This document shows positions 24,479-56,919 of a DNA stretch of 64,000 nucleotides, piece by piece. Source of the DNA: a virus; the IMG/VR virus record IMGVR_UViG_3300020572_000005, positions 50,199 through 114,198 of that record; one strand, given 5' to 3'. Position 1 is the stretch's first letter. Each line of letters opens with the position of its first letter. Below the pieces are notes generated by a model. The model saw nothing but the letters and a program-made list of their open reading frames with translations. It had not been told where the DNA came from and did no database searches. Both the position numbers and the translations under genes were made by a program.

Positions 24479-25682
24479 CACTTTTTGCGTGTTGCCTTGG
24501 ATCTCACTGGAGGCCAGTCCTGTTGGGACTGTACGTCCTTGCTGTCTGGCCATGGACGAAATCACTGACAGCAACGGAGACAAATATAAACTAGCAACAA
24601 CTGGATTGGGCGAAATACAAAATAGCCGAGCAATGAAAACTCTGCGAGAAGACTTTCTTGCTGGTAAAAAACCGCAGAACTGCCGTCGTTGCTGGAATGA
24701 AGAACGTGCCGGTCGTACCAGCAAACGTATGCACACACTGGACAGACTCAAGCACATGATCGATCGTGATGTTGATTGGACCCAGGATGCAATGCCATTG
24801 ATGTTCCTGGATCTTAAACTAGGCAACATTTGTAATTTAAAATGTCGTATTTGCGGCTCGTGGAGTAGTAGTCAGTTTGCCGCAGAAGAAATCAAATACA
24901 ATCGTGCTGAAGATACTCGTGGTAGCTTTGCGTATCAGATGCTTCGAGACGGCGCCTGGCCCAGAGAAAGTGTAGAGTTTTGGACGGACCTGGACCAACA
25001 CTTGGACAACATACGCTACATTGAGTTCACCGGTGGCGAGCCTTTTATGATTCAAGAGCATTTTCAACTGCTACAAAAATTAGTAGACACTGGCCGTGCA
25101 GCACAAGTTGAAATACACTACAACACCAATGGTACACAGTATCCAGAAGAAGGCGAAGCCATCTGGAAACACTTCAAGAATGTTGAAATTGCCATCAGCA
25201 TCGACGATGTAGCAGAACGGTTTGAATACCAGCGTACCAATGCTGTGTGGTACGAAGTGGTTGAGAATGTAGAGCGTTTTCGCCAACTACGCAGTCGTAA
25301 CAGTAACATCACATTACAGGCCTGTTGCACTATCAACGTGTTCAATGTGTACTATCTTGAAACTGTGGCCAATTGGTTAATACAACAGGGATTTGATTTT
25401 ATCTACTGGAACATGATGCACGATGCCTATTACTTTAGTATTAGTACATTGCCAGAATCAGCCAAAGCAGAAATCACTACAAAACTAACCTCTGCAACTG
25501 TTCCGCCTAAGATACTTAAAGAGTTTGTCAGTGCGGCCGAGTTTATGAATCGTGGCAACAGTCTAGATGGACATTTGTTACGTATGAATCTACGTGACCT
25601 TGACCATAAGAGAAAGCAAAACTTAGCACAAGTGGCACCAGAGTTTGCGGCATTGATCGACTATGACTACAACAAAACCTGA
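24462..25682 (+). CDS. Radical SAM protein E, CxxPW twitch subtype
   Basis: A 406-residue protein of the same subtype as C: FCVLPWISLEASPVGTVRPC (C9, C27, C28), then NCRRCW (C74, C77), then the SAM motif C124-x3-C128-x2-C131 (ICNLKCRICGSWSSS) and TGGEPFM. The C-terminal half has the usual partial-barrel strand pattern (EIHYNTNGTQ, NVEIAISIDD). It overlaps the SGNH gene by 17 nt and F by 20 nt. No peptide-binding RRE-like domain is evident by eye. The substrate is unknown. Confidence 0.8.
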   Translation: MNIPHDTFCVLPWISLEASPVGTVRPCCLAMDEITDSNGDKYKLATTGLGEIQNSRAMKTLREDFLAGKKPQNCRRCWNEERAGRTSKRMHTLDRLKHMIDRDVDWTQDAMPLMFLDLKLGNICNLKCRICGSWSSSQFAAEEIKYNRAEDTRGSFAYQMLRDGAWPRESVEFWTDLDQHLDNIRYIEFTGGEPFMIQEHFQLLQKLVDTGRAAQVEIHYNTNGTQYPEEGEAIWKHFKNVEIAISIDDVAERFEYQRTNAVWYEVVENVERFRQLRSRNSNITLQACCTINVFNVYYLETVANWLIQQGFDFIYWNMMHDAYYFSISTLPESAKAEITTKLTSATVPPKILKEFVSAAEFMNRGNSLDGHLLRMNLRDLDHKRKQNLAQVAPEFAALIDYDYNKT

Positions 25683-26961
25683 CATACTGTGCATGGCGCC
25701 ATGGACACACACGTATCTAAGTCCACAAACAGAACGGCGTATGTGTTGTGCGTCGAGAGAACCTGCGCAGAGTTTTGAACAGTACATCGACACCGGTGCT
25801 GGAACAGGACGTTACACTCCTATTACTTTGGATCAACACTGGAACGGTGAGCACATGCGATCAGTGCGACGTCGCATGATGTCTGGCGAAACATTGCCCG
25901 AATGCGATGTATGCAATAGCAAATTGCTAAACACCGACGTTTATCGTAGTTATTTTTGGCATTTGTTCCGACACAAGTATGACGATGTTGTTGCTTCAAC
26001 AGATGACACCGGGTATACCACAATGAAACCTGTAAGCTGGGACTATCGTTTTAGTAATCTTTGTAACTTTAAATGCAGAACCTGTGGTGATATGCTATCC
26101 AGTGCCTGGGAAACAGAACAAAAAACACATGACATGATCAACTGGCACAATCCTAAAAACAATTGGATGCGATCAGATGTACGTCAAGAAATAACTAAGT
26201 TTCAGGATAAACAAATTGAGGCAGAATTTGCCGACGCAGTTGAACAACATCGTGTAGAAGAAGTATACTGGGTAGGCGGCGAACCATTGATGTATGAACA
26301 GCACTGGCGCTACATGAAAAGAATAGTAGAACTTGGAGATGGAGAAAGAGTATATGCTAGGTACAACACCAATCTTAGTCGCATTGAGTATCGTGGCATT
26401 AATTTATATCGTGATATTTTATCTAATATACGCGACTGGCAGATTTGCGCTTCCTTGGACGGAACAGAAGATATCGGAGAATACATACGTACAGGTTTGG
26501 AGTATGTATCCTTTTTAAATAATTTTGAGCAAGGACTAGCTTATCAAAAGAACCGAAGACAAATGCGTCTAGACTTTACACTAACACTGCCCGGAATGTT
26601 TGAGATTATCAAAATGGAAAAGTTAGCGCAAAAGTATAATGTAGAGTTGCTGGCCAAAGTGATATTCAGTTTCGGTCCTGATATTGTTATGAGTCCATTA
26701 TCATTGCCACGTGATTTACTAGAACCCTGGATTGACGAGTTATTGCCGCAATGTCACACACAAGTAATGCGAAACATGCTTGCTCAATTGCGCACTCGCC
26801 CTACGTTTGCTGAACAATGGCCAGATCAATATGCCGCAGGCATTGCAAAAGGCAAAGCTCGTGTGTTAAAATTAGAACAGATACGTACACAACCAGTCAC
26901 AATGACAGACATACTGAGCACCCGGCCTGATGTATTAACGTGGTGGATGAATATACAATGA
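25663..26961 (+). CDS. Radical SAM protein F, CxxPW twitch subtype
   Basis: The 432-residue product has LCMAPWTHTYLSP with C10, C28 and C29, then CDVC (C81, C84), the SAM motif C134-x3-C138-x2-C141 (LCNFKCRTCGDMLSS) and VGGEPLM. It shares RFSNLCN with C, so C and F are likely duplicates that diverged. The stop overlaps the next start (ATGA at 26958-26961). Its position beside the conserved 26958-28001 gene recurs as a coupled unit. Function beyond radical chemistry is not known. Confidence 0.8.
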   Translation: MTTTKPDILCMAPWTHTYLSPQTERRMCCASREPAQSFEQYIDTGAGTGRYTPITLDQHWNGEHMRSVRRRMMSGETLPECDVCNSKLLNTDVYRSYFWHLFRHKYDDVVASTDDTGYTTMKPVSWDYRFSNLCNFKCRTCGDMLSSAWETEQKTHDMINWHNPKNNWMRSDVRQEITKFQDKQIEAEFADAVEQHRVEEVYWVGGEPLMYEQHWRYMKRIVELGDGERVYARYNTNLSRIEYRGINLYRDILSNIRDWQICASLDGTEDIGEYIRTGLEYVSFLNNFEQGLAYQKNRRQMRLDFTLTLPGMFEIIKMEKLAQKYNVELLAKVIFSFGPDIVMSPLSLPRDLLEPWIDELLPQCHTQVMRNMLAQLRTRPTFAEQWPDQYAAGIAKGKARVLKLEQIRTQPVTMTDILSTRPDVLTWWMNIQ

Positions 26962-28001
26962 TAGATCAAATTGAAATTACTTTAAAAGGCAATGACAACA
27001 GCACTACGACAGTGTGGATTGATGTTGCAGATAACAGCTTGAGTCACAAATGGCTTGCCGCATTAAATACCCTAATCCGTAACAATTATCATTTGGAAAA
27101 GAATTACTGTTTTTTTGGATTTGTGCAAAGTCAACGCAACGCAGAATACTTAACCGAACAAATGAACAGTAGTATTGCTGCCATTAATGCTGCCAACATT
27201 GGATATCATATTGACGATTATTTTTCAACTGCTAATACTATTGCGCCCGATGTAAAGTTAATACATGATAAGTTAAACTATCTACATCGTTACTTTGAAG
27301 ATTTGCAAGGTATATCGGGTGCAATGAGTCCTTTTTATACCAAAGCAGATCCCGTGACACGATGGCATATAAGACAATTAAATTTGTTATGTCATGAATA
27401 CGAAAGTCTTGTTCTCAGTATGCGCAAAGTACTTTATACACCTGAATGGCAACGACCTAGTCAACTCATGTGTTGGTTACACGCACCGCGATTTGTGTTA
27501 GATGAACAAGATTATGAACTGTTTGGAGTTGAAACAATCAATAGGCCACTGGGTGGAGTTTTTGTAGGCGTAAATAAAGCTGTAGGCAAACACCATTGGG
27601 AAGTGTTCAATGATGAAGGACGAGACAGCCGTGTAGGAGAGTTAATAACTACAACGCTAAAACCACAAACAGAAGCCGCCGGCGACTTTGACATTGAATG
27701 GGCCAACAATCCTGGCACATTTCCGTGGCAGCAAAAAACCTTGACAGATTTTAGAGTATGGTTAACAAACAACGGGTTTGATCCAGAAGATAAAAGTCTA
27801 ACCATTGGACATCCGCAGGTGGCACAGGTAGATTTAATCCGTAGTTTTGGAACAGATAACTATGTAGATATATGGAACACCTTAGGAAGTCATCTTAACG
27901 TGCATAAAATACGCACCAGTGATGCAACAGCTACATACAGTTATAATTGGACAGATGCAGATTATGCAGATCAACAAATTAAAATAATACAAGGGACATG
28001 A
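26958..28001 (+). CDS. Conserved hypothetical protein coupled to radical SAM genes, 347 aa
   Basis: ATG 26958 overlaps the preceding TGA by 4 nt and is preferred to 26940. The protein begins IDQIEITLKGNDNSTTTVWID and contains a helical, histidine- and tyrosine-rich middle (KLNYLHRYFEDLQGI, WHIRQLNLLCHEYESL), then LGGVFVGVNKAVGKHHWEVF. Possible metal ligands (several His, Asp and Glu) are visible but no known motif. Its location between radical SAM F and a carbamoyltransferase suggests a role in the same modification process. I do not recognise the family. Confidence 0.6.
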   Translation: MIDQIEITLKGNDNSTTTVWIDVADNSLSHKWLAALNTLIRNNYHLEKNYCFFGFVQSQRNAEYLTEQMNSSIAAINAANIGYHIDDYFSTANTIAPDVKLIHDKLNYLHRYFEDLQGISGAMSPFYTKADPVTRWHIRQLNLLCHEYESLVLSMRKVLYTPEWQRPSQLMCWLHAPRFVLDEQDYELFGVETINRPLGGVFVGVNKAVGKHHWEVFNDEGRDSRVGELITTTLKPQTEAAGDFDIEWANNPGTFPWQQKTLTDFRVWLTNNGFDPEDKSLTIGHPQVAQVDLIRSFGTDNYVDIWNTLGSHLNVHKIRTSDATATYSYNWTDADYADQQIKIIQGT

Positions 28002-28002
28002 T

Positions 28003-28104
28003 ATGAACTGGATTAAAAATTTATACAATCGTATTCGTTTAGAAATACGCTATCGTAAAAAACTAAAAGAACTACGTAAACGAGATCCTTTTATCTACAA
28101 ATGA
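28003..28104 (+). CDS. 33-residue basic peptide before the carbamoyltransferase
   Basis: The ATG at 28003 follows the previous stop by 1 nt and the TGA overlaps the carbamoyltransferase ATG (ATGA at 28101). The product begins MNWIKNLYNRIRLEIRYRKK and ends KRDPFIYK: one strongly basic amphipathic helix. I recall comparable small basic ORFs in marine phages, but cannot check this here. It could bind nucleic acid or a membrane, or be a partner or substrate of neighbouring enzymes. Function unknown. Confidence 0.6.
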   Translation: MNWIKNLYNRIRLEIRYRKKLKELRKRDPFIYK

Positions 28105-29612
28105 AGTTGAAAACATATTTGGGTGTCAGTGCCGGGTTTCACGATGCCGCTGTGAGTGTAATTCAGTCTGACGGCAGTGTACTTTTTGCCGGGCATGCAG
28201 AACGCTACAGCAAAAACAAAAACGATGCACATCTAAATGATTCGATCATTGCAGAAGCAATGTCATACGCAACTCCGGATGTGATTGCATACTATGAACG
28301 TCCGTGGGTCAAAAAACTACAACAACTATATTCGGGACAATATGAGGAAGCCTTTGATTTTGGGAATTTTACTTTGGATCAGTATTTGCATAAACATCTA
28401 TCTGATACTGTTCATCGGCAGCAACTACTACGATGCCCTAGAAAATATATGTCCCATCATCATAGTCACGCCGCCGCAGGATTCCAATCCAGCCCCTATA
28501 ACAGGGCCACAGTGGTTGTAATTGATGCCATTGGTGAATTAGACACCGTAACTATCTGGGGAGCAGAATATGATCGATCAGGCATGGCAACGTATAAAAA
28601 ACTTTGGACACAGCGTTACCCACATTCAATTGGATTGTTCTACTCTGCGGCTACTGGCAGCGTTGGCCTACGCCCACTAGACGAAGAATATATCTTGATG
28701 GGTATGGCCGCATATGGCAATGCTAGTCACGCTGTTAAAATGCAAGCATTGGTAGAAGATGTAGACACCATACGCTTTTGTGAAAATCTACACACAGGAA
28801 TAGACAGTCAATACCTGCAAGATTTAACTGAGTTTGATATTGCCGCAGGTGCACAAGCCATTGCGGAACAATTGATCAACAGCGTGATGCGCAGAGCCAG
28901 AGACTTTGGCTGGAGCAACAACTTGGTCTACATGGGCGGTGTTGCTCTCAACTGTAGTGCTAACCGCAACCTAGGAGAATACTTTGATAATATTTGGATT
29001 ATGCCTTGTCCTGGTGACGCTGGCAGTAGTTTGGGCGCGGCAGCACTTGCATACGGAAAACAGATACATTGGAAAAACGCCTATTTGGGTTGTGTTATTC
29101 CGGGTGCTTATCCTGTTGCTGATATTGTATCTTGCTTACTAAGCGATAAAATTGTTGGTGTTGCTAGTGGTCGTGCTGAGTTTGGCCCTAGGGCTCTCGG
29201 CAATAGGAGTTTATTAGCAGACCCGCGTGGTGCAGACATAAAGGATCGTGTAAATGATATTAAAAGACGACAGCAATTCAGACCATTTGCGCCGGTTATT
29301 TTGGAGGAGCATGTTGATATGTATTTTGATATGCCTCATGGCTTCCATAACAGTAGGTATATGCAAGTCATCGCTCGCTGTAGGCATCCTCACATATTTC
29401 CTGCTATCGTTCATAGGGACGGCACTAGTAGGGTACAGACTGTTCCTAAGGATGGCTCCGGAATAAGACAACTGCTAGAAGAATGGTACAAGGCAACAGG
29501 TTGTCCTATGTTGCTTAACACAAGTCTTAACATACGTGGCGAACCCATGGTAAATGATCGTGCAGACGCAGATAGATTTGAACAATTATACGGAGTAAAA
29601 GTCTGCTCATGA
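28101..29612 (+). CDS. Carbamoyltransferase, NodU/CmcH family
   Basis: A 503-residue protein with both halves of the family. The N-terminal Kae1/TsaD-like part has YLGVSAGFHDAAVSVI near residues 6-21 and the metal-binding HHHSHAAAGF at about 115-124. The C-terminal part contains EFGPRALGNRSLLADPR, RPFAPVI and LLNTSLNIRGEPMV. These enzymes transfer a carbamoyl group from carbamoyl phosphate, through carbamoyl-adenylate, to a sugar or antibiotic hydroxyl. Length is slightly short compared with usual members (about 550-600). It lies in the operon between a 33-residue peptide and radical SAM G, overlapping both by 4 nt. A glycan hydroxyl is the likely acceptor. Confidence 0.9.
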   Translation: MKLKTYLGVSAGFHDAAVSVIQSDGSVLFAGHAERYSKNKNDAHLNDSIIAEAMSYATPDVIAYYERPWVKKLQQLYSGQYEEAFDFGNFTLDQYLHKHLSDTVHRQQLLRCPRKYMSHHHSHAAAGFQSSPYNRATVVVIDAIGELDTVTIWGAEYDRSGMATYKKLWTQRYPHSIGLFYSAATGSVGLRPLDEEYILMGMAAYGNASHAVKMQALVEDVDTIRFCENLHTGIDSQYLQDLTEFDIAAGAQAIAEQLINSVMRRARDFGWSNNLVYMGGVALNCSANRNLGEYFDNIWIMPCPGDAGSSLGAAALAYGKQIHWKNAYLGCVIPGAYPVADIVSCLLSDKIVGVASGRAEFGPRALGNRSLLADPRGADIKDRVNDIKRRQQFRPFAPVILEEHVDMYFDMPHGFHNSRYMQVIARCRHPHIFPAIVHRDGTSRVQTVPKDGSGIRQLLEEWYKATGCPMLLNTSLNIRGEPMVNDRADADRFEQLYGVKVCS

Positions 29613-30874
29613 CTGATAAACAAGTATTTCCAATCAAAACAGACACAGGATGCTTGCTCAAGTGGGCCTGGAGCACTGTGTACTTAAATCAAGGCACAAG
29701 TGCTAGTTGTCACCGTACAGACCAACAACCCATACCTCCAGACAACTTTGAAAGTTTTCATAATCTGCCAAACAAAATAGAAGCCAGGCAAATGATGTTG
29801 CGTGGCGAATGGCCACAGGGTGGTTGTCAGTACTGCGAAAAGATTGAAACAGCTGGCGGCATGAGCGACAGACAATATCAATTACATGCTCGTCATGACC
29901 TGGATCGTACTCCGCACGAGTTGTTTAAAGATCCAACTACGTTGGAAGTTGTACCTACCATATTAGAAGTATATTTCAACAATGTATGCAACATGGCCTG
30001 CTTGTATTGCGGCAGTCACTTTAGTACAAAATGGGAAGAAGAGAACCGACGATTTGGTGTGTTTACACAAGGCAATGTAAACTTTGGGCACAACACACAA
30101 TCTAATCCCAACTATGAGCGCATGCTGGCAGACTTTTGGCGCTACCTGGAAGAGAAAGATCGTTACAAACACATACGCTACTATCAAATACTGGGTGGCG
30201 AGCCTTTCTTCCAGGATGAGTTTGACATCAGCATGGACTTCTGGGAAAGTCATCCCAATCCAGAACTTACATTTAACATTATTACCAACCTAAAGGTACC
30301 ACCTAAAAAGTTCCAAGCCTACATTGATCGCTTTGGCAAGATGGTTGAGTCTGGCGCACTAAAACGATTGCAAATCACAGGTAGTATAGATGCCTGGGGA
30401 CCACAAGAAGAATATGTGCGGTGGGGATTAGACTTGGCCGAGTGGACAGAAAACTGGGAATATCTACTAGACAAAGACTGGGTTGTGATGTGCGTGAACA
30501 GTGCAGTGTCGGCATTGACAATTAAAACAGCACCTGAGCTAGTGGAAAAGATAAACGAGTGGAACGATCGTCGCAATCCGTGGAATCCTATTAGCTACAG
30601 TTTCATGAGTGTGATGACCCCGCCTGAAATGGTTCCAGACATATTTGGACCAGGCGTGTTTGAACAGGACTTTGCACGTTTACTGGCCGCAATGCGAGAA
30701 CGCAATCCCAGCGAAGTCAGTGCTAAAGAACACATGCGTGGCATTATGAAACAGATTGTAGCAGGACCTCGCAACGCAGAACGTATTGCTGATTTGAAAG
30801 TTTATCTGACTGAAATAGATCGACGTCGTGTCACTGATTGGAAACTGTTGTTTCCGTGGCTGATAGAACTATAA
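29609..30874 (+). CDS. Radical SAM protein G, KW-type twitch
   Basis: This 421-residue protein has C127-x3-C131-x2-C134 (VCNMACLYCGSHFS) and ILGGEPFF. Auxiliary cysteines are C15 (GCLLKW), C34 (SCHRT), C73 and C76 (CQYC), matching A, B and D; the closest match is D. It starts within the carbamoyltransferase stop (4-nt overlap) and ends 73 nt inside the convergent gene on the other strand. It is the last gene of the forward operon. Confidence 0.8.
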   Translation: MTDKQVFPIKTDTGCLLKWAWSTVYLNQGTSASCHRTDQQPIPPDNFESFHNLPNKIEARQMMLRGEWPQGGCQYCEKIETAGGMSDRQYQLHARHDLDRTPHELFKDPTTLEVVPTILEVYFNNVCNMACLYCGSHFSTKWEEENRRFGVFTQGNVNFGHNTQSNPNYERMLADFWRYLEEKDRYKHIRYYQILGGEPFFQDEFDISMDFWESHPNPELTFNIITNLKVPPKKFQAYIDRFGKMVESGALKRLQITGSIDAWGPQEEYVRWGLDLAEWTENWEYLLDKDWVVMCVNSAVSALTIKTAPELVEKINEWNDRRNPWNPISYSFMSVMTPPEMVPDIFGPGVFEQDFARLLAAMRERNPSEVSAKEHMRGIMKQIVAGPRNAERIADLKVYLTEIDRRRVTDWKLLFPWLIEL

Positions 30875-31668
30875 TAGTCTAGGTTGCTGGGTGCGGACCG
30901 TTGGTTGTCCATCTGTTCAAGATCTAATGCTGCCAACACATCCTTACTAGTGGTTGGTTCACGCAATGCTCGGCCTTGTACATGAATCAAGTCCTGTGCT
31001 TGATTATAATGCCAACCCGGATCAATTAGTTCTAACCTATTATTTAATAATACGCCAATACTGGTAAAAACACACTTAGGTGGAATTAACAAATTTTTAA
31101 CGTTGTCAAATTGTTCCAAGGATATTGCGTTTATTAATGATGTCAGCCCAATAGGTCGATCCTGGAAGCACAGTTCAAATGCTCCGCCGCATAGATATAC
31201 ATTTTCAACGTCAGGATACTGTGAATTGAGCAAATATACCACCTGGTCCAGAGTCCAGGCCGCAAACATTTTCTGATCCTGTCTGAGAGGCATAGTTAAC
31301 ACAGCCGGATTAGTGACTGGTGTATCATGAAGTATAAATTGATTTACAACAGGTCCATGATGGTTGTCAGAGATTATCTGTGCATGTTCTTGTGCCAACC
31401 AGGCTGAACCTGTGTAGGCTGGAACAGCAGGATTGAGATCGGGATTGAACACCTGTCTACTGTTGTGCCAAATTGGCGATTCTATTGGCGTTGCTGATGT
31501 TCCGTGCAATTCGTATTCTGTGTAAGATGCAACCACTATGCACTTTACAAAATCTTGTTGAATAAACTCGGCTAAGTGTTTAAACATTTGATGCGGCCGA
31601 TGGCCAACTGGATCTAGCCATGCATCAATGACAATAACCGCACTTGGAGTTCGAAACTTACTGGACAT
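30802..31668 (-). CDS. Hypothetical protein, 288 aa, convergent with radical SAM G
   Basis: The protein begins with a beta strand (SAVIVIDAWLDPVGHRPHQMF), has a CIVVASYTEYEL strand-turn and a VYLCGGAFELCF block, an order that loosely resembles isochorismatase-like or hydrolase alpha/beta folds, but no catalytic triad is clear. Its last 24 codons lie opposite the 3' end of radical SAM G. It overlaps the downstream start of the radical SAM H stop region by 11 nt, so it is translated as the last gene of a five-gene reverse operon. I assign no function. Confidence 0.55.
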   Translation of the reverse strand: MSSKFRTPSAVIVIDAWLDPVGHRPHQMFKHLAEFIQQDFVKCIVVASYTEYELHGTSATPIESPIWHNSRQVFNPDLNPAVPAYTGSAWLAQEHAQIISDNHHGPVVNQFILHDTPVTNPAVLTMPLRQDQKMFAAWTLDQVVYLLNSQYPDVENVYLCGGAFELCFQDRPIGLTSLINAISLEQFDNVKNLLIPPKCVFTSIGVLLNNRLELIDPGWHYNQAQDLIHVQGRALREPTTSKDVLAALDLEQMDNQRSAPSNLDYYSSISHGNNSFQSVTRRRSISVR

Positions 31669-32689
31669 GACACAGTTCTACTAAACTGGGATTAAACTGT
31701 ATGCGTCCTGCATATTCCGAATATGCTGTGCCTAAAAAGTACATGGCTGCTGAATGATCTGTATGAGAGATGTTGCCAATCACATCATGTTCAGCATAAT
31801 TGACCCATGTGCCCCAATCTTCTAAGCGGTTAATCACTCCGCTAAATCCCATATCAACACATAGTCGACAGAAGTTCTGCATGTCTTGATAGTTGTCTTG
31901 CTGTAGCACAAACTTTAACAGTACTTCTGCACCTGTACGTTCTACAGTGCCCTGCAACCAAGTTAAGTTGGTAATCAACTGTGACCACTGTCCTCCTAGA
32001 CGCACACGTTCATATACTGGAGCAGAGCCTGCATCTATGCTGATAAAATACTGTGTAATGTGATCAAGTATAGGAGAATCATCCAGTTGTTTTTTCAATA
32101 ACAAGCCATTGGTGAACAACCGAATAGTTTGATTGGGGCCTGGACAAAATTCTCGTATCAATGGTCGCATAATAGCACTGGCCAACGGATCGCCGTTGCC
32201 ACTCATTACAATGTGGCAAGGTTCTTTAAATTCTTCTAACAAACGACGTATGTGTTGTACCTGTGCTAGTTTGCGATCATACTCGTCGCCAGAGTTGATC
32301 ATTATTGCCGCAGGCCTGCAACTTGGGCAACGTAGATTACAACTTTCGTCAACGTTGATGCTGACCACGTGTGTTGTATCTATTTTGCTAGAGTGTACCA
32401 CACCACATCGATCAACAGCACAATGTGTATAAGCACCAGAATCAATGTCGGCTTGTAATGCCAATGCTGACTTGCTGTTCCATACACTGGCCAATGAATC
32501 AAAGTCTGAAATTTGTCCTACACTGATTGGCAACCATGCTTCGCATCCACATACAAAACAATCACCTTTCCAGTCTATAACCAATTGGCGACTGGGTGCA
32601 TTGCAGTGATTGTCAATTGTTAATTTTAAATCTGCATTGCGCGGTATTGAATTGTAGGAGTGCCGGTTAGCAATTGGAATGACAAACAT
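31658..32689 (-). CDS. Radical SAM protein H with cysteine-rich N-terminal domain
   Basis: ATG 32689 shares a base with the upstream stop (TAATG), so I prefer it to an earlier in-frame start at 32740. The 343-residue product has SAM motif C117-x3-C121-x2-C124 (SCNLRCPSCRPA). Upstream are C29, C44, C47, C49, C90 and C95, which could hold one auxiliary cluster in a SPASM/twitch-like domain. The usual GGEP is replaced by SGNGDPLA. The middle contains IRLFTNGLLL. It is coupled to an amidinotransferase. It is the most divergent of the eight and the only one on this strand. Confidence 0.75.
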   Translation of the reverse strand: MFVIPIANRHSYNSIPRNADLKLTIDNHCNAPSRQLVIDWKGDCFVCGCEAWLPISVGQISDFDSLASVWNSKSALALQADIDSGAYTHCAVDRCGVVHSSKIDTTHVVSINVDESCNLRCPSCRPAAIMINSGDEYDRKLAQVQHIRRLLEEFKEPCHIVMSGNGDPLASAIMRPLIREFCPGPNQTIRLFTNGLLLKKQLDDSPILDHITQYFISIDAGSAPVYERVRLGGQWSQLITNLTWLQGTVERTGAEVLLKFVLQQDNYQDMQNFCRLCVDMGFSGVINRLEDWGTWVNYAEHDVIGNISHTDHSAAMYFLGTAYSEYAGRIQFNPSLVELCHVQ

Positions 32690-33708
32690 TATAGATATGT
32701 TTCTAAGCCGCCTCGGCGTGTCAAGTCCTGTGTACAGCAACTGATGCCACCATCCCAGAAGTAACTATGACGCAGTTCACTAATAATTGGATTGATACGA
32801 TGCCGTTTACAGAAATCAAACACATCTCTGTTGTACGCACTGAAGATAACATTTTCTTCGTCCAGCACTAAACAATTGACATCAAACACTGTTTCGGCAA
32901 CAAAGCCGGTCCATTTGTTCAAGTATGTGTCAACAAACTTTGTAAACTCCTGTGTGGGGGTTTGTCCTTGCACATACCATGCTCCAGGGCTTTGTTCGTA
33001 CTTGAACTTGCCTATTTCCATGGCTGCCCAGATACTGCTATCCCAAATCTTTAGCACTTCCCATCCTGGAAAGTCCTTGGCAAGATCTAAGTTGACATCG
33101 TGCTTGCTAGACAAAATAACACCGGGCTTGAGAATAGCAAACACAGCATCGCCGTGGCCGTCTGTTACTGCTTCGTGTATACGATACTCTGGGCCCAAGC
33201 AGTTGTCCACAATCCAACGTGTTTGTTCTGGCTTTAGATAATCACTGTTGTCAAAGAATACGTCACGCCCTACACGCACAATACAACTAGCACTTGCTTG
33301 GTTAAGAATGCAGTCAGCATCCCACCGACCGTTATGTGGACTGATCACTTGGTCTGCATATTCTGCACAAATGTCGTCCAGTTCTTCCATTGGTAACACA
33401 CGCAGTAACTTTTGTCCCAGACTAATTTGCCAATCACGTGGAGTCAACGGAGGCAAAGGTGCACCACCGTTTTCTGTTTGCCACCACACAAATTGATCCT
33501 TGGGTGGTAAGTTGGGACGACGTACACGAGCACCATAGGTTTCGATGGTCTTTTGCAGGTTGTTTAAATCTTCCTCAGTCTCGGCTAGAATTTGTTGTAG
33601 TTGATTGCGCACCTGCGGATTGTCAATAAAGTCAAAATAATCTGGACTGTAAGCACGACCCACAATAACTTCTTCTAAGGGTTGCCAACTGGTGTAGGAA
33701 TTAATCAT
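32689..33708 (-). CDS. Amidinotransferase-like protein
   Basis: This 339-residue protein matches the amidinotransferase fold: N-terminal SWQPLEEVIVGRAY, VTDGHGDAVF near residues 181-190 with H185 as the likely catalytic His, and RHSYFWDGGISCCT near 313-326 with C325 in the position of the catalytic Cys. In known members these residues, with Asp, move an amidino group from arginine to an amine (glycine or inosamine). The usual HC before Thr is CC here. Closely related enzymes are hydrolases, so transfer rather than hydrolysis is inferred. It overlaps radical SAM H by 1 nt and the upstream gene by 8 nt. Confidence 0.75.
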   Translation of the reverse strand: MINSYTSWQPLEEVIVGRAYSPDYFDFIDNPQVRNQLQQILAETEEDLNNLQKTIETYGARVRRPNLPPKDQFVWWQTENGGAPLPPLTPRDWQISLGQKLLRVLPMEELDDICAEYADQVISPHNGRWDADCILNQASASCIVRVGRDVFFDNSDYLKPEQTRWIVDNCLGPEYRIHEAVTDGHGDAVFAILKPGVILSSKHDVNLDLAKDFPGWEVLKIWDSSIWAAMEIGKFKYEQSPGAWYVQGQTPTQEFTKFVDTYLNKWTGFVAETVFDVNCLVLDEENVIFSAYNRDVFDFCKRHRINPIISELRHSYFWDGGISCCTQDLTRRGGLETYL

Positions 33709-34888
33709 TGTGTATTCTTTCTAATAGAGTATTTAATCTGTGGGCTTTTGAGCTACAAAATAACTGTTGGTTGTGTTCAACATCTGATCGGCAAGATTCA
33801 AACCAGGTGTGCAAGTCTTGCGACTTTAGTTGTGCAATTGTTTTACGCACAGCAATCCAACGTTCAGTATTATCTTGTATTGTATCGTAACTGTTGTCTA
33901 CGACATGATCAAATGTACGATAACCTAGGTCTCGCAATGCAGACAAGGATCCAGGGCATCCTACTACAACAAAAGGTTGTCCGTGTTTGATTGCTTTGAA
34001 TGTTTTTTCAGTTAAAAACGCACCACCTGATCCGTCTGCATCAAAGTGTGTTTCTAATACTATATTACAGTAACTATCTGTAAAATGATTGGTTTCTATT
34101 AGGTGATGATCGTTGTGTTGTTCGTGTGTGAGTGCATCGCATGTGTATGGACCGTTGCTTAAAAACTGTTTGATGTCTTCTCGAATTTCAAGAGTATCAA
34201 CCTCAATGGGATTGTCAGTTTCGGCTTCATCTGTCACAATGTCAGTTCCGTAACTCCAGTAACTGTTGTCTAGTAATCCCTCACGGTGTAGGTCTGTCAT
34301 CACAGTGGCCCTCCACCATTTGTGTGTTCTGCTTAGTACTGTAAAGTCACGCAATCGTCGATTGGTGTGTACAGGTGTTGGGGGTATTTGTTGATTGCGA
34401 TGCCAGTATAGAAGTTCGTGATCTGGAAAATACACAAAGCCTGGAATGCCATTGGCTGCTGTATTGCCACTGACAAACCGGTAGCAGTTGGGTGGCAGCA
34501 AATGATTTTGACACAGTTCGTCTAGTCGATCTTTGATACGGAATGGATTGTCACCTTCGTGATAGTAAAACAGCACAGTTAGTTCTTCTCGACGCAACTG
34601 ACGTCGTACCACCTCAGTCATTAAAGCAAAGTAATCAACATCAAAGTTAAAAAAGCCTAGTCCTACTGTGTAGTAAGCACCACTTGTAAGATTGCTAAGA
34701 TCAGATAACTTATACTTGATGCCGTGTGTGTTGAAATGTTCGTACAACTCAGCAGGAACTGTATTGGGCCAATGCTGTACAAATTCACGCCATTCTGCAG
34801 TGTAAGGTTGTGCCTGCCACCGTGCTAGTGCAGGATATGCTTTGTTACGAACTACGCGGTCAGCAACAAAGTTATTTGCGTAGTCCAT
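33701..34888 (-). CDS. Glycosyltransferase-like protein, DESYD family (2)
   Basis: A 395-residue protein whose C-terminal 110 residues (FLTEKTFKAIKHGQPFVVVG, LGYRTFDHVVDNSYD, HNQQLF) align with the two family members at 18754-19902 and 34872-35987. The N-terminal part is distinct (YYTVGLGFFNFDVDYFAL, LFYYHEGDNPF) and may set specificity. EK..K...G.PFVV resembles the donor-binding strand of GT10-like enzymes. The start overlaps the upstream gene by 17 nt. The sugar and acceptor are unknown. Confidence 0.5.
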   Translation of the reverse strand: MDYANNFVADRVVRNKAYPALARWQAQPYTAEWREFVQHWPNTVPAELYEHFNTHGIKYKLSDLSNLTSGAYYTVGLGFFNFDVDYFALMTEVVRRQLRREELTVLFYYHEGDNPFRIKDRLDELCQNHLLPPNCYRFVSGNTAANGIPGFVYFPDHELLYWHRNQQIPPTPVHTNRRLRDFTVLSRTHKWWRATVMTDLHREGLLDNSYWSYGTDIVTDEAETDNPIEVDTLEIREDIKQFLSNGPYTCDALTHEQHNDHHLIETNHFTDSYCNIVLETHFDADGSGGAFLTEKTFKAIKHGQPFVVVGCPGSLSALRDLGYRTFDHVVDNSYDTIQDNTERWIAVRKTIAQLKSQDLHTWFESCRSDVEHNQQLFCSSKAHRLNTLLERIHND

Positions 34889-35987
34889 GGAGCATGCTAG
34901 TTAGTTCTGGCCATAATACGTTTGTCAGGCCACCCCTGTAAAAATGGCGGAAGTTGTGTTCCACGAGAGGTAAACACGCACGATGTATTGATTGGCGCTC
35001 TCTTGCACTTTGATTGTCTAGATCTTTTAGTAATCGAGCGACCTTTTCCACACGTAGCACGTCGTCGGTTTCGGCATCATAGCTTTCATCAAATATGTCA
35101 TCAAAAGTTTTAAATCCGTAACTGCGCATATACTCTAAGCTGTGGGCAGGTGCAACCAATACAAATGGCATTTCTAATGCAATAGCTTTAAATGTTTTTT
35201 CTGTTATGTGTGTTCTGCGTCCAAAGTATACAGTTTCGGTAGGAACATATACCAAACTGTCTTGTGCTTCTGCATAGTTACCTAGCCAGCAACTGGTCAT
35301 CTGTTGTGATTCTTCTCCTGCAAACAATCTTGGCAAGGCAGCATGTTCAAACACTTGCGAAATATCTGGATATGTGTTACAATACTTGTTGGCCACAACA
35401 CTTATATCAACATTTTCGTATTGGCATACTCGTGGCACACTGATATGATTGTGTTCTAAACCTTGTTTGAATACATTATACAAAAACAACACACGATGAT
35501 CACGCTTGCCACCTACAATACGATTGGGACTCATAAAAGTCCGTGTGGGCGCACGATCTCTTGCTCGAGGAATTAAGAATGACTTGTCATAACCGCGGAA
35601 CCAGTCTTGACAGGCCCAGCCGTGGTAAAAATAATAGTGACTTTTCCATCCGTATGTTTCACATAGACGTTCAACATACTCGCCATGTTCACTTACAACA
35701 ACATGACCAAATTGGGTTGGCTTTACTTGATTATGTTGATGCCACCACAAATCTATATTCCGTCTTGCTACATCATCAAACAATGGCCGATATTCTTCCG
35801 TCCAGCACGGCTCTTGATCGTGCATCCACACGTAGTCAGTTTCTATGATGTCATCACTGCCCAAGTTAAATAAAGCATCCGGGTCGGTTTGGCCCGGCGG
35901 ATCACAAAAAAACAATCTCGTACCTGGTAGATTTTTTTCTATCCAAGGCCAAAAAGTATTATTATAAATCTCGTCTATTCTTATCAT
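34872..35987 (-). CDS. Glycosyltransferase-like protein, DESYD family (3)
   Basis: This 371-residue protein starts at ATG 35987, which shares two bases with the divergent ATG at 35986. It has HDQEPCW near residue 55, a motif also present in 55248-56567 (HDQEPL), and the shared C-terminal block ITEKTFKAIALEMPFVLVAP, GFKTFDDIFDESYD. It is the first gene of the reverse operon ending with 30802-31668. No ribosome site precedes the start. A nucleotide-sugar transferase is the most likely role; it may instead be non-enzymatic. Confidence 0.5.
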   Translation of the reverse strand: MIRIDEIYNNTFWPWIEKNLPGTRLFFCDPPGQTDPDALFNLGSDDIIETDYVWMHDQEPCWTEEYRPLFDDVARRNIDLWWHQHNQVKPTQFGHVVVSEHGEYVERLCETYGWKSHYYFYHGWACQDWFRGYDKSFLIPRARDRAPTRTFMSPNRIVGGKRDHRVLFLYNVFKQGLEHNHISVPRVCQYENVDISVVANKYCNTYPDISQVFEHAALPRLFAGEESQQMTSCWLGNYAEAQDSLVYVPTETVYFGRRTHITEKTFKAIALEMPFVLVAPAHSLEYMRSYGFKTFDDIFDESYDAETDDVLRVEKVARLLKDLDNQSARERQSIHRACLPLVEHNFRHFYRGGLTNVLWPELTSMLHGLRK

Positions 35988-38817
35988 GTTTGATGTATTT
36001 TATTCTGGAAAAAAGCCCAATTTGTTTGCGCATGAGCAGGCAGTAGATACCATTGAACAAGCACAACAGCAGAGTCGTACACGGTTCTTTTGGTTTGTAA
36101 ATTACTTATCGGACTACTCTGGCTTTGATTTTCTTTGGGAGCCAGTGCCTTGGCAAGCACACCAGCGACATGCCTGGGCAAGTCAACACCAACCAGATTC
36201 GGGCACATATCTTGTGCCTACAGTAGGCTACACAGATACAAACTATCACACCGATGTAGTATTGCAAAGAATCAACAATGAAGATTCATGGAAAATACAC
36301 GAAGCAATAGATCAAGAGTCATGGGATTGGTCCTGGCATCCTGATCCGGCAGAGCCTCCTTACATCTACGTGTTTGGTAATCAGTGGAACTTTCCTGAAT
36401 ACAAGGCCAGTGTAGAGTATGTTGTACCTGGAGCGACTGAACGCAAGTACATGGATCTAAAAACAACTAGACTACCGCTGCCGCAGTTATTTGCACATAA
36501 TCTAGCAGTGAGCAAGTTTGATTATTCGTGGGAACCTAATCCGTTTGATCCTCCTTATGTGTATGTGTTTGGCAATCAGTGGAACCCTGGTGTACTAGAG
36601 CCCACGATAATTTATACAGTACCCGGAGCAACAGAACACAAGTATGTAGATGACATTGTGGCCACTGTAGCATCCAGTCCTGCAGACTTTGATGTGTTGC
36701 ACGATATTGCTGACTTTGATTATTCCTGGAGACCCAATCCTACAGATCCAGATTACATATATGTGTTCGGCAATGAATGGCACACAGCAGAGATCATGCC
36801 CACAGTGGAATATCAAGTGGGCAGTGCCACTGAACGCAAATATGTAGAATACCCTCGAGCTAAACTGCCACAGCACCGCAATAATAAATGGCACACAGTA
36901 GAAGATTGTGATTGGAATTATTCCTGGATACCAGATCCAGGTGATCCTCCTTACACGTATGTGTTTGGCAATCAGCATTGGTCTGCTGAAATTATGCCTA
37001 CTGTCACATACACAGTTCCTGGCGCAACTGAACGCAAGTACATGGATTATCCACGTGCTCAACTGTTAGAAACACACCTACACTGGGACACTATTACACA
37101 TCATGACTATGAGTTTGATCGATCTTGGCGACCCGATCCTGGTGAGCCGCCTATGATATATGTGTTTGGCAACCAACACTGGCCTGCAGAGAAAATGCCC
37201 GTGTTGCGTTACTGTTCCGAGCCTGCGGATCAAGACTTGCCCATCAAGTACATGGACTACCCTCGAGCCACACTACTGCCCAACAAAACAATGTGGGTGC
37301 TACCTGAGGGTGTGCGTGAAGAACACGTGGACTTCTCTTGGGTTCCTGATCCTGGTGAACCTGCCTACATCTATCAGTTTGCTACACAGTGGCAAAAAAC
37401 CGGCGGCCCACAGTATCATGTGCCTGGTGCAACTGAAATCAAGTACCTTGAGCATGTAGAAATCAAAATTGAAACTACCACAGTTCCTATTGTGGAGATT
37501 GATCACTTGGATGGTAGTGCAGGTAACATTCCCGATACCGTCAAACGCATACGTTACTTTGACAACTATAGGGATACACTTGTACGTTTAGCCAAAAGTC
37601 TAGTTGGTGAGCATGAGTTTGTATGGGTATGTAGCAGTATTTGTGACTACACTGACTTTGACTTTTCGTGGCACCCGGAAAAATGGCAAAGCACTATGCT
37701 ACATGTATTTGCCTCCAATGAACAAAAGTTTGGAGATACATTCTACATGCACGTTCCTACATTTGCGGCTCGTGCAGAGAAGAAAGCCCTGTTGGAATGG
37801 TACAGCGTAAACTATGTGCCACGGATTCGTGTTTCACGCAGACCCATGCCTGTGATACAGCACACAGAAGACAGTCATGTAGATGCAGTCAAGAACGCAA
37901 CATGGTCAGGTCCATTGGCCACATTTACCACAACTGATTGTGTGTCGGATAATGTAGTCACAGTTCCGCTGTGGCGCACTGAAACCAAAACTATTGTGCC
38001 ATTGAGTAAAGGTGCTGCCAGTGTGATTGTTCCGCGAGTGGCAGTAGGTGATATTCGTACACAGTTATATGATTACCCGTACATTAATAAAACACAACGC
38101 ATGGGCAAAGAACATCCGTTGGACATTGTGTTTATAAGCAATGGCGAAAAGTATGCTGGTTTTCATGAACAACAGTTATATCGATCAGTACAAAGAGACG
38201 GGCTTGACTGCAATCACATACATCATTCTACAGGCGTAAACGGTCGAGTGGCAGCATACCAAGCAGCCGCCAGGTCAAGCACAACACCTTGGTTCTTTGC
38301 TGTGTTTGCCAAGCTAGAAGTTGATCCCAAGTTTGACTGGACATGGCAACCTGATCGTATGCAACAGGCCAAGCACTACATCTTTCACGCATACAATCCT
38401 GTGAATGGATTGACATATGGTCACCAAGCTATGATTGCATACAATAAGAAAATGGTGTTGGAGAACGTTGGAGCAGGATTAGACTTTACACTGGATCAAC
38501 CGCATGAAGTTGTGCCCGTGCTCAGTGGTGTAGCTAATTATAATGAAACACCTTGGACAGCTTGGCGCACTGCATTCCGTGAAGTGCTTAAATTAAAGGC
38601 CAGTCTGCCAGATGTAGAAAGTGAATACCGACTCCGTATGTGGCTCAGTAATGCTGGCGAAGTTCCAAATGCAGAATGGAGTCAGTGGGGCGCCGAAGAT
38701 GCAGTAGAGTACTACGACGAAGTAGGCGGCGACTTTGCGGCTCTAAAGAAAAGTTACGAGTGGACTTGGTTGGCCAGTTATGCGTTTATGCGACGCAGTT
38801 TACAACCTGATCGCTGA
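35986..38817 (+). CDS. 943-residue tandem-repeat protein with glycosyltransferase-like C-terminus
   Basis: Six clear copies of a unit of about 55-75 residues lie between residues about 110 and 490. Each has (F/W)D(Y/W/R)SW.P.P.(D/E)PPY.YVFGNQ, then (T/V)...VPGATE.KY(M/V)D(YPRA). Two looser copies flank them (FDFLWEPVPWQ near 45; FDFSWHPEKWQ near 560), and a last copy FDWTWQPDRMQ lies in the C-terminal domain. Residues about 700-943 match the 308-residue protein at 15896-16822 in block order (VNGRVAAYQAA, VNGLTYG, WTAWRTAFREV). I infer a degenerate GT-A chain or a long scaffold, possibly a substrate of the island. There is no signal peptide. It is transcribed divergently from 34872-35987. Confidence 0.7.
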   Translation: MFDVFYSGKKPNLFAHEQAVDTIEQAQQQSRTRFFWFVNYLSDYSGFDFLWEPVPWQAHQRHAWASQHQPDSGTYLVPTVGYTDTNYHTDVVLQRINNEDSWKIHEAIDQESWDWSWHPDPAEPPYIYVFGNQWNFPEYKASVEYVVPGATERKYMDLKTTRLPLPQLFAHNLAVSKFDYSWEPNPFDPPYVYVFGNQWNPGVLEPTIIYTVPGATEHKYVDDIVATVASSPADFDVLHDIADFDYSWRPNPTDPDYIYVFGNEWHTAEIMPTVEYQVGSATERKYVEYPRAKLPQHRNNKWHTVEDCDWNYSWIPDPGDPPYTYVFGNQHWSAEIMPTVTYTVPGATERKYMDYPRAQLLETHLHWDTITHHDYEFDRSWRPDPGEPPMIYVFGNQHWPAEKMPVLRYCSEPADQDLPIKYMDYPRATLLPNKTMWVLPEGVREEHVDFSWVPDPGEPAYIYQFATQWQKTGGPQYHVPGATEIKYLEHVEIKIETTTVPIVEIDHLDGSAGNIPDTVKRIRYFDNYRDTLVRLAKSLVGEHEFVWVCSSICDYTDFDFSWHPEKWQSTMLHVFASNEQKFGDTFYMHVPTFAARAEKKALLEWYSVNYVPRIRVSRRPMPVIQHTEDSHVDAVKNATWSGPLATFTTTDCVSDNVVTVPLWRTETKTIVPLSKGAASVIVPRVAVGDIRTQLYDYPYINKTQRMGKEHPLDIVFISNGEKYAGFHEQQLYRSVQRDGLDCNHIHHSTGVNGRVAAYQAAARSSTTPWFFAVFAKLEVDPKFDWTWQPDRMQQAKHYIFHAYNPVNGLTYGHQAMIAYNKKMVLENVGAGLDFTLDQPHEVVPVLSGVANYNETPWTAWRTAFREVLKLKASLPDVESEYRLRMWLSNAGEVPNAEWSQWGAEDAVEYYDEVGGDFAALKKSYEWTWLASYAFMRRSLQPDR

Positions 38818-39892
38818 TGTATTCAACTTCTAAGTCTGTTAGTTCGGGATAGATAGGCAGACTTAGTACACGACGAGCAAGACTAGAACTTGCGGCCAAC
38901 ATGTCTGGGCCAGGATATGCTCTATACAACGGTAGTTCGTGCAATGGGTTTATATAATGTACTCGTGTATCAATCTTGCGCAGTGCAAGATTTGCTCGTA
39001 GCGTATCACGTCCATCAACATCTATAACAAACTTATGAACAGCATGATTGTGTGCATTGGTATCGTTAATCAAACACCGTATGTCTGTATGTTTAAAACG
39101 ATCACGCCAATGATCTGCAATCTTTTGTCTACGTGCTTGCCAATAATCAATATGTCGAGATTTAACCAACATGTGCGCACAGTCCAGTTCGCTCATACGA
39201 CTGTTGGTACCTGGATTTCGATGTGTAGGTTTACCATTGTCTCGCCATGCTCGGGCATATTCTGCTAGATCCAAATTGTCTGTAACAACGGCACCACCAT
39301 TGCCATAACAAGCCAAGTTTTTCATAGGATCAAAACTAATTGCCGCACCACCTTTGCCTATTCTTGTGCAGTCAGCCGATAACCAATGTTGTGCGGCATC
39401 TTCGATTATAAGAGTATCATGTTGTACCCATTGATGCCAGGCGCGAACATCACCGTGATGCGTAACTGCGGCACCGTACAATCCAACCATTACAATTGCC
39501 TGATAACTTAACCCTGTTGGTATTGAATTAGTGTTTAATAAACCCTGCGCATCTGTATCAATGATGTGTATATCCCAGCCTGCACGTACGAATGCATTGG
39601 CAGTGGCCACATAGGTCATTGCAGGGATCAACACAGTGGGAGGATGCGGCACAGGAGATTCCATGGCCCAGTAATTGGCTAAGATTTCAAGTGCATGTGT
39701 GCCTGAATGGCAAGTTACAGCATAACGCACATGATTCTTTCGAGCAAGCCATGCTTCAAACTCCACAGTGTTGTTGCCGTTCATGAGTTGACCACTGCGA
39801 AGAACTTCGTCAGTCACATCTAGAATTTCTGTGCGGAGATTGTTATACTGTTTTTTTAAACCAGTAAACGGGATTGTAAGTCCAGTATTCAT
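38786..39892 (-). CDS. DegT/DnrJ/EryC1/StrS-type PLP aminotransferase
   Basis: ATG 39892 overlaps the upstream stop by 4 nt and is preferred to 39955. In the 368-residue product, IPFTGLKKQY opens the fold, EDAAQH at 164-169 holds the PLP-nitrogen Asp, and SFDPMKNLACYGNGG places K191 as the PLP lysine; NSRMSELDCAHM follows as in family members. The enzyme would transaminate a keto nucleotide-sugar to an amino sugar. The 3' end overlaps the convergent repeat-protein gene by 32 nt. The neighbouring epimerase supports nucleotide-sugar synthesis. Confidence 0.9.
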   Translation of the reverse strand: MNTGLTIPFTGLKKQYNNLRTEILDVTDEVLRSGQLMNGNNTVEFEAWLARKNHVRYAVTCHSGTHALEILANYWAMESPVPHPPTVLIPAMTYVATANAFVRAGWDIHIIDTDAQGLLNTNSIPTGLSYQAIVMVGLYGAAVTHHGDVRAWHQWVQHDTLIIEDAAQHWLSADCTRIGKGGAAISFDPMKNLACYGNGGAVVTDNLDLAEYARAWRDNGKPTHRNPGTNSRMSELDCAHMLVKSRHIDYWQARRQKIADHWRDRFKHTDIRCLINDTNAHNHAVHKFVIDVDGRDTLRANLALRKIDTRVHYINPLHELPLYRAYPGPDMLAASSSLARRVLSLPIYPELTDLEVEYISDQVVNCVA

Positions 39893-40068
39893 GCATTCTT
39901 TGCCCAGGCAATATACCCACCATTGGCATTGCTCCACGGGCAATACTGTTCCCACAATACAGTTGCTTGCTCTGGATTCTCTTTCATCAAGAGGTCTAGA
40001 CTATGCCTGGTCTTGTATCCATCAAGACTCCAGTCATGATTTTTCAATGCAGTTTCTAAGTCATTCAT
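39889..40068 (-). CDS. Small conserved protein between epimerase and aminotransferase, 59 aa
   Basis: The best start is ATG 40068 (MNDLETALKNHDWSLDGYKT), 11 nt after the epimerase stop; a longer frame from 40119 would run into the epimerase. The C-terminus ends WSNANGGYIAWAKNA. The protein is compact and acidic-to-neutral. It overlaps the aminotransferase start by 4 nt. No function recognised. Confidence 0.6.
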   Translation of the reverse strand: MNDLETALKNHDWSLDGYKTRHSLDLLMKENPEQATVLWEQYCPWSNANGGYIAWAKNA

Positions 40069-40079
40069 TTTGTTTATCT

Positions 40080-41048
40080 TTAAAAAGTAGTTTGCCAGTA
40101 GGAAGATTCGCTCAGCCACTTGTAGTAATTTTGGAATCCCTCTTCTACATCTACTCGAGGATCATATCCAAGCACAGTCCTTGCCTTCGTGATATTTAAT
40201 GCACCTCGACTGGGAAAGTCCGCATCCTTGTCACGACATTCTATTGTTCCTTTGCCAACAATTTTAACAATCATTTCTGCGGCTTCTAACAAACTCACTG
40301 AATGTGATTTGGTGATGTTGTAGGTCATATTTTTACTCATGATACGAGTTGCGGCAGACACAATGCCGTCGGCCGCGTCATCTACATAGGTAAAGTCTAA
40401 CGTCTCCCCTGCCCCATTAACTCGGAGAACGCTGCCTCGCATTGCTGTGAGCATAAATTTTGCAACAACTCGGTCCTCCACATCCAAGGGGCCGTATACA
40501 GCACTAGGCCTAATAATAGCGTAATCAAAAGCGCCGCGACGATGGTAGTCTTTGACAATGTCTTCTCCTGTTAATTTTAAGATGCCGTATTGGCCAATGG
40601 GTCGGCAATTGTAGTCCTCTTCAACTTGATCTTCAAAGTCGCCATACACCATTGAACTTGAGATGTATACCACACGTTCTACATTGTGAGTTTTGGCACT
40701 CTCACAAATGTTAATCAACCCCTCCATCATAACTCTAGCACCCCAAGCTGGATTGGCATTTACAACCTTTTGTCGGGGGAAACTTGCCATGTGTATTACT
40801 ACTTCTGGCTTGTGCTCAGCCATAACAAAGTCCATGTCACTGGCATCGGTAATATCGTATGGATAAATTTTGGTGTCTGGCGCAAGTTTTTTCATACGCT
40901 CGTGCATTAAATAGTCAATTTCTGATTGTGGAATAATACCATAGTTGGTTTTTGTATCCACAATTACAACATTGTCTCCTCGAGCTTGTAAACGTTGTAC
41001 CACGTTGTGACCAATAAGACCCAGGCCGCCTGTTACTAATATCTTCAT
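40080..41048 (-). CDS. NAD-dependent nucleotide-sugar epimerase/dehydratase (SDR)
   Basis: ATG 41048 has a strong AAGGAAAG ribosome site; the in-frame start at 41090 does not. The 322-residue product has the Rossmann motif GGLGLIG at 7-13 and the catalytic Y154-x3-K158 with S132 (YISSSMVYGD). The overall pattern, including HMASFPR and RPSAVYGP, fits extended SDR enzymes acting on UDP- or CDP-sugars. It is followed by the aminotransferase, so a 4-keto or 4-epi sugar is a likely product. Exact substrate unknown. Confidence 0.9.
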   Translation of the reverse strand: MKILVTGGLGLIGHNVVQRLQARGDNVVIVDTKTNYGIIPQSEIDYLMHERMKKLAPDTKIYPYDITDASDMDFVMAEHKPEVVIHMASFPRQKVVNANPAWGARVMMEGLINICESAKTHNVERVVYISSSMVYGDFEDQVEEDYNCRPIGQYGILKLTGEDIVKDYHRRGAFDYAIIRPSAVYGPLDVEDRVVAKFMLTAMRGSVLRVNGAGETLDFTYVDDAADGIVSAATRIMSKNMTYNITKSHSVSLLEAAEMIVKIVGKGTIECRDKDADFPSRGALNITKARTVLGYDPRVDVEEGFQNYYKWLSESSYWQTTF

Positions 41049-41059
41049 TTCTTTCCTTA

Positions 41060-41410
41060 TTATATTAGATGTTGTGCAAGTACCATGCAACTAATCCAGA
41101 CCCAAATTGTATTAAACCCTACCAAAGTTGGCAATGCTTTTTTATTGCTAGCCCAAATAAGTGTTAGACTTGTTGCTAGTGTAAAGAAATACAACCACCA
41201 AATAGTAATGCCAAAGATCAAGCCAGGAACAATAATGGTAGCTTTTGCCGCCCAACTTAAAAACTCTACAGTATTATAGTCAGTCCAATATTCTTTTGTA
41301 AACCACATGCCATAACATTCTTTAATCTTGACAAATGTGATATGTTTGTAGCTGATTAATATCAATACTGCCCACACAACTGTGCCAGCTAACATTTGAT
41401 TCTCACTCAT
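41060..41410 (-). CDS. Small membrane protein, about three TM segments
   Basis: A 116-residue hydrophobic protein with apparent membrane helices near residues 7-20, 55-75 and 88-113 and a charged loop (KIKECYGMWFTKEYW). It lies 11 nt upstream of the epimerase in the operon and overlaps the next membrane gene by 8 nt. It may help anchor or flip modified lipids, but no family is recognised. Confidence 0.6.
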   Translation of the reverse strand: MSENQMLAGTVVWAVLILISYKHITFVKIKECYGMWFTKEYWTDYNTVEFLSWAAKATIIVPGLIFGITIWWLYFFTLATSLTLIWASNKKALPTLVGFNTIWVWISCMVLAQHLI

Positions 41411-56567: not shown

Positions 56568-56586
56568 GCCATTGGATTTTGTCTTT

Positions 56587-56627
56587 GAATAAAAGGTAAT
56601 TTAATTCTGTTACGAGGATAAATTACC
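56587..56627 (-). terminator. Hairpin and U-tract after the tmRNA coding piece
   Basis: GGTAATTTA/TAAATTACC is a perfect 9-bp stem with a 15-nt loop, followed by TTTTATTC on the minus strand. It could equally be a pseudoknot element of the tmRNA. Confidence 0.5.
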
Positions 56628-56905: not shown

Positions 56906-56909
56906 CTCT

Positions 56910-56917
56910 TATTTATA
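56910..56917 (-). promoter_or_regulatory. TATAAATA upstream of the permuted tmRNA
   Basis: Exact minus-strand TATAAATA directly after the tRNA-fMet CCA and about 5-10 nt before the likely start of the tmRNA acceptor piece, suggesting late expression. Confidence 0.45.
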
Positions 56918-56919
56918 AT

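Follow-up and report, generated by a model that had tools for sequence, protein, structure and literature searches.

A possible DxD-less scaffold protein with glycosyltransferase-like modules and a beta-repeat array in the glycan island of a large phage

Why should a large phage carry, within an island of sugar-synthesis and radical SAM genes, a long protein that contains a string of aromatic repeats? The question is raised by open reading frame (ORF) 35986-38817 (+ strand) in the stretch of DNA analysed here, hereafter the window, which comprises the final 64 kb (64,000 nucleotides) of the 114,198-base virus record IMGVR_UViG_3300020572_000005. A first-pass annotation had described six strong copies of the repeat and two or three looser ones, had likened both ends of the protein to glycosyltransferases (GTs), and had proposed that its conserved Trp and Tyr residues form repeated binding surfaces and that it could be a scaffold, a receptor-like protein or a substrate of the radical SAM enzymes. 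Our analysis indicates that the repeat units probably originated from part of a GT module, and it leaves us about evenly divided on whether the protein is a GT-derived scaffold, lacking the Asp-x-Asp (DxD) motif and offering several binding sites, for the assembly of a phage glycan. The gene and its parts are as follows.

35986..38817, + strand: repeat protein gene, 943 residues; 23 loci in the first scan and 531 profile candidates; ratio of nonsynonymous to synonymous substitution (dN/dS) about 0.1
35986..36270, + strand: N-terminal half GT-A-like module, residues 1-95; beta-alpha-beta then FFWFVNYLSDYSGFDF; without DxD; from hhalign and AlphaFold2 secondary structure
36280..37476, + strand: array of six 66-residue beta units, residues ~99-497, types E-D-M-A-P-B; boundaries approximate; AlphaFold2 model of residues 98-359
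37477..38097, + strand: middle GT-A-like module (residues 498-625) and linker to residue 704; DxD position reads CSS
38098..38814, + strand: C-terminal GT-A domain, residues 705-943; structural match over residues 710-855 (VIA Z 9.6-12) and tblastn matches on Streptomyces plasmids
38305..38313, + strand: codons of F774-A775-K776, which occupy the DxD (DGD) position, from alignment with intact relatives

Repeat units and glycosyltransferase modules

We compared the repeat protein with itself using 30-residue ungapped BLOSUM62 diagonals, the best of which scored 129 with eleven at 79 or above, whereas the maxima of 20 shuffled controls reached only 26-54. A hidden Markov model (HMM) of the unit recovered six strong copies between residues ~107 and 489 (44-108 bits) and one weak copy at residues 553-576, with an extra weak match at residues 781-800 in close relatives. 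Together with the HMM-HMM comparison described below, these data bear out the count of six strong and two or three looser copies. The gene is evolving under purifying selection, its dN/dS against four relatives being 0.10-0.12 (0.09-0.11 for the array alone). In two loci, L001 and L002, synonymous divergence was higher in the array than in the flanking modules.

Structure comparison showed that residues 710-855 have a GT-A fold, with VIA Z scores of 9.6-12.0 to GT-A enzymes (WrtF, SunS/ThuS, B4GALNT1 and K4CP share the fold), and two-domain structural alignments reached over residues 498-853. The AlphaFold2 model of the whole protein had a mean predicted local distance difference test score (pLDDT) of 88.9 and a predicted template modelling score (pTM) of 0.53, so that single domains can be trusted, though not the way they are arranged. 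Comparison of the N-terminal with the middle module showed the two to be homologous (hhalign E 1e-13; each pairwise hhalign E-value given here refers to one single comparison), and the proposal that both ends are GT-like is thereby borne out. Unlike the GT-A enzymes above, however, the repeat protein has Phe-Ala-Lys in place of the DxD, lacks a DxD in its N-terminal and middle modules and contains an inserted tandem array of beta units. No meaningful match was found among PDB sequences, and no family in Pfam (at cut-off), NCBIfam or PHROGs matched the protein. A tblastn search of plasmids did show that residues 711-937 resemble Streptomyces (E down to 4e-8) and Rhodobacter proteins annotated as hypothetical. 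These homologues keep an intact DGD or DAD motif, and the S. rochei gene is flanked on both sides by predicted glycosyltransferases. At two Streptomyces plasmid loci (L099:6838-10827 and L100:6841-8762) the DGD-bearing homologue, which has no Pfam, NCBIfam or PHROGs assignment at either, lies immediately behind a glycosyltransferase gene; at L099 it stands within a small glycosyltransferase operon.

We then asked what the 66-residue units are. In HMM-HMM comparison the unit profile matched a segment of the N-terminal module (residues 46-85) as well as the middle and C-terminal modules, in each case aligning after the metal site, at FDFSWxP (E 6.7e-6, 7.4e-7 and 2.3e-5, respectively). None of 200 column-shuffled controls reached the real unit-against-module scores. 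Since the units match the GT modules at this place and above the shuffled controls, they probably go back to a copied piece of a GT module, as judged by sequence comparison; the alignments span just 19-40 columns, and a residual doubt attaches to convergence on a short motif.

A four-unit stretch (residues 98-359), modelled with 71 array segments, was predicted to be all beta with a pLDDT of 96.7 and a pTM of 0.83, in keeping with well-folded beta repeats. Comparison of this array with the PDB gave a best Foldseek E-value of 9.3 and a VIA Z of at least 2 in none of nine chains. The array fold may therefore be new, although an absent PDB match is no proof of this, and a beta-repeat array predicted with such confidence for which no PDB match was found is of interest in itself. 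The invariant Trp, Pro, Tyr and Lys residues of the units alternate with variable residues along the strands, the pattern from which surface exposure was deduced, and are common to the GT modules. They look like core-packing or structural residues, and the idea that the conserved Trp and Tyr form repeated binding surfaces has thus become doubtful, the type-specific variation lying instead in the loop after FGNQW.

That variation follows a consistent order. Positions that distinguish unit types and have low entropy within a type lie mainly in this loop, and the types recur in the orders JNCHHHLEDFCAB, KHLEDFCAB, KREDFCAB, EDMAPB (the window protein) and IAB. The records compared are metagenomic and many are fragmentary; the loci share descent, and the tests on neighbouring genes reported below carry no correction for it. 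The median best identity of a unit was 86% to units of other proteins as against 50% to its sisters in the same protein. A homogenising tandem repeat was considered and rejected, as only 19 of 398 units had their closest relative among their own sisters, for example in the recent tandem runs of L017, L068 and L076. In the first set the unit count was 0 (L019) or lay between 1 and 17, and a second scan extended it to 23-24 (L181, of 2198 residues, and L189, which ends at a contig edge and so gives a lower bound), and proteins with C-termini 93-95% alike had 8 versus 10 or 3 versus 12 units. Across 80 loci the units were found solely alongside GT modules, with the exception of two proteins truncated at contig ends, and in no other protein architecture.

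DxD loss and an intact paralogue

In the C-terminal domain, F774-A775-K776 stands where the fourth strand ends, in place of the DGD expected there. Ala775 and Lys776 are invariant in 47 family proteins and Phe774 is present in at least 90%, and despite the change from DGD to FAK the family motifs NPxNGLxYG and AWRxxFRE are retained in all repeat proteins checked. None of the 47 proteins shows a [DE]xD in the middle-module segment, and the N-terminal module has no conserved DxD. The window also encodes a relative of the C-terminal domain in which the motif is intact:

15896..16822, + strand: paralogue that stands alone, related to the C-terminal domain and with its DGD intact; 308 residues; E 1.2e-22 to the S. 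rochei protein

Its sequence suggests that the product is a probable active glycosyltransferase. Orthologues were present in all nine large phage records examined, 15-27 kb (in coordinates) from the repeat gene, and the DGD is kept in each of the eight that were aligned. The G006 orthologue (G006:C1:39151-40032) contains one in-frame TGA.

The glycan island and the role of the repeat protein

Genes around the repeat gene include those for predicted GT-like, sugar-modifying and radical SAM proteins:

34872..35987, - strand: GT-like protein with TEKTFK motif, GT by motif reading only; homologue in 84/89 loci
33701..34888, - strand: second GT-like protein with TEKTFK motif, GT by motif reading only; 83/89 loci
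32689..33708, - strand: amidinotransferase (glycine / inosamine-phosphate amidinotransferase family), phmmer against PDB E 7e-15; 65/89 loci
38786..39955, - strand: DegT/DnrJ/EryC1/StrS sugar aminotransferase, Pfam E 2.8e-61; 79/89 loci
40080..41090, - strand: NAD-dependent nucleotide-sugar epimerase/dehydratase, Pfam E 1.1e-42; 74/89 loci
28101..29612, + strand: O-carbamoyltransferase (NodU/TobZ type), Pfam N and C domains 3.6e-31 and 1.2e-48; 78/89 loci
17394..30874, + strand: seven radical SAM genes among others, starting at 17394, 19784, 21222, 22502, 24462, 25663 and 29609
31658..32740, - strand: radical SAM/SPASM protein, Pfam 2.3e-7 and 3.8e-6

The repeat gene and the 34872 gene lie head-to-head with start codons that overlap by two bases (CATG), an arrangement found in 74 of 85 loci. 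The loss of the DxD from a fold that is otherwise kept, the presence of an intact paralogue close by, this glycan synteny and the type-specific loops of the units together argue for a non-catalytic scaffold. This is the best remaining reading, and one of the first-pass proposals on function, although we hold it with no more than even confidence. A jumbo-phage lineage would have duplicated a GT-A-type glycosyltransferase, of which one copy stayed stand-alone with its DxD while the second, its DxD lost, grew into half a GT module, a string of 66-residue units copied from the segment right behind the metal site, and two GT-A-like modules. The long protein would then act as a scaffold, with no canonical catalysis through DxD: its GT modules would hold either the glycan or the active glycosyltransferases of the island, and every type of unit would dock its own partner enzyme or glycan segment through its loop. 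Candidate active partners are the products of 34872, 33701 and 15896, and the glycan under construction would be an unusual one, with aminated, amidinated and carbamoylated sugar. From these features we infer the scaffold role and, with it, the nature of the ligands and a glycan destined for the virion or the host surface.

A precedent for a supporting role of this kind is provided by CHPF, which without a DxD stabilises its active chondroitin polymerase/synthase partner (PMC12748766). CHPF and CHPF2 have in common with the repeat protein DxD-less GT-A domains in a setting of glycan assembly. The structural alignment of residues 498-853 with CHSY3-CHPF had a root-mean-square deviation of 13.8, however, so the likeness holds domain by domain only; moreover, CHPF has no repeat array, and a profile search of PDB sequences with the repeat protein found no related chain.

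Several observations count against a scaffold. The rapid change in unit number is odd if each unit has an essential partner; and neighbouring genes showed no significant tie to unit number, the best of 56 tests (P=0.0017) being non-significant after correction and confounded by descent. Lastly, the lysine found where the DxD would be could allow catalysis that is independent of metal. A bolder version of the scaffold, in which GT-carved beta units in at least 24 copies, with a fixed type order and their own loops, constitute an addressable assembly line for glycan-building and radical SAM enzymes, strikes us as conceivable but doubtful.

Were the scaffold reading correct, a catalytic fold would have been turned into a repeat scaffold, along a path that the intact paralogue and relatives with 0, 1 and 24 units would allow to be followed. 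If the units do dock enzymes or glycans, they would amount to a reorderable scaffold made by a phage and would offer a route into jumbo-phage decorations with amidinated and carbamoylated sugars.

The lysine is central to the strongest rival, in which the C-terminal domain is a working glycosyltransferase that needs no metal, Lys776 taking its place, and the units bind the acceptor glycan. GT-A enzymes that dispense with metal and rely on basic residues are known (GT14), and both the invariance of Lys776 in 47 relatives and the retention of the other family motifs are consistent with such an enzyme. We nevertheless consider it unlikely, given that the DGD conserved in the paralogues has been lost, that the N-terminal and middle modules are DxD-less as well, and that an intact paralogue accompanies the repeat gene in nine of nine records.

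Alternatively, the array might be a spacer or ruler whose length sets that of the glycan chain, as discussed for the coiled-coil region of WbdD in the O9a antigen system, an extended segment involved in chain-length control (PMC3482155). Its position between the N-terminal module and the two C-terminal GT-A modules and its quickly changing length, from 0 to at least 24 units, would suit a ruler. A pure spacer, however, needs no ordered, conserved unit types with type-specific loops such as are present here, and we regard this explanation as quite unlikely. WbdD is in any case a possible analogy, with no claim of homology: the array differs from it in its all-beta units and conserved types, and the repeat protein has no kinase or methyltransferase.

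Variable repeats are common in adhesins, and the distance from the repeat gene to virion structural genes is about 23 kb, which raises the prospect of a virion structural or receptor-binding protein with a variable repeat number. Against this stand the sugar-biosynthesis surroundings, the overlapping divergent GT-like gene in most loci, the GT-A-derived modules throughout the protein and the lack of any PHROG structural match; we think such a role improbable.

Finally, that the units are substrates whose aromatic residues are crosslinked or modified by the island's radical SAM enzymes is very improbable and did not stand up: radical SAM genes are abundant (eight in the window and 7-21 matches per related phage record) and the units have invariant Trp, Tyr and Lys, but across 23 records unit number and radical SAM number were uncorrelated (Spearman 0.00), 16 radical SAM matches occur in a relative with a single unit (L080), and the conserved aromatics, within an array confidently predicted to fold as compact beta structure, are common to the GT modules.

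Phage background and further features of the island

The carrier is a large freshwater-type jumbo phage. Virion genes in the neighbourhood have their relatives in jumbo phages of the RaK2/Atu_ph07/Munch type. Moraphages, a separate freshwater jumbo-phage lineage, have four core groups of glycosyltransferases (PMC12619734); a link to them is neither made nor excluded. The profile scan of IMG/VR yielded 531 confirmed candidates of the repeat family, on contigs of up to 374 kb, whereas none of 21 pattern matches in GTDB genome contigs was confirmed, cultured phage records, a set from which very close entries may be absent, gave no relative, and the literature gave no description of such a repeat protein under the terms used. 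Two proteins of uncultured Caudovirales phages, A0A6J5L5L5 and A0A6J5LK21, belong to the same family (Foldseek E 0 and 5e-83) but differ in length (1076 and 804 residues) and have no function on record.

Within the island, partial correlations of the repeat gene given the backbone were 0.36 for DegT and 0.51 for the epimerase; co-evolution with these sugar genes was rejected, as physical linkage can explain the values. The combination of amidinotransferase, carbamoyltransferase, DegT and epimerase in one phage brings together enzyme types from aminocyclitol and amino-sugar antibiotic pathways, the amidinotransferase being StrB1-like (E 2e-13 to 1bwd). In the radical SAM proteins 21222, 24462, 25663 and 31658 the SPASM match lies ahead of the radical SAM domain, the opposite of the usual order. 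Two small proteins, 16822-17397 and 23897-24478 (both + strand), have starts that resemble SGNH/GDSL hydrolases (LLLDGCSFTYG and GLALGCSHTAG), by reading only.

The region from 50 to 64 kb of the window contains 18 tRNAs and a candidate transfer-messenger RNA (tmRNA). The latter, called by ARAGORN at 56555-56932 (- strand) and asterisked, has an unusually long tag (ANVNKTVTVSGKNVKFSARTAKEALAV) and overlaps a tRNA-Met call; the call may reflect a permuted tmRNA or be spurious. Comparison of the window with L036 showed a mosaic in which upstream genes are 85-97% identical, the repeat protein 63%, DegT 64% and the epimerase 73%, with identity back to 85-90% further along, a pattern that suggests cassette exchange.

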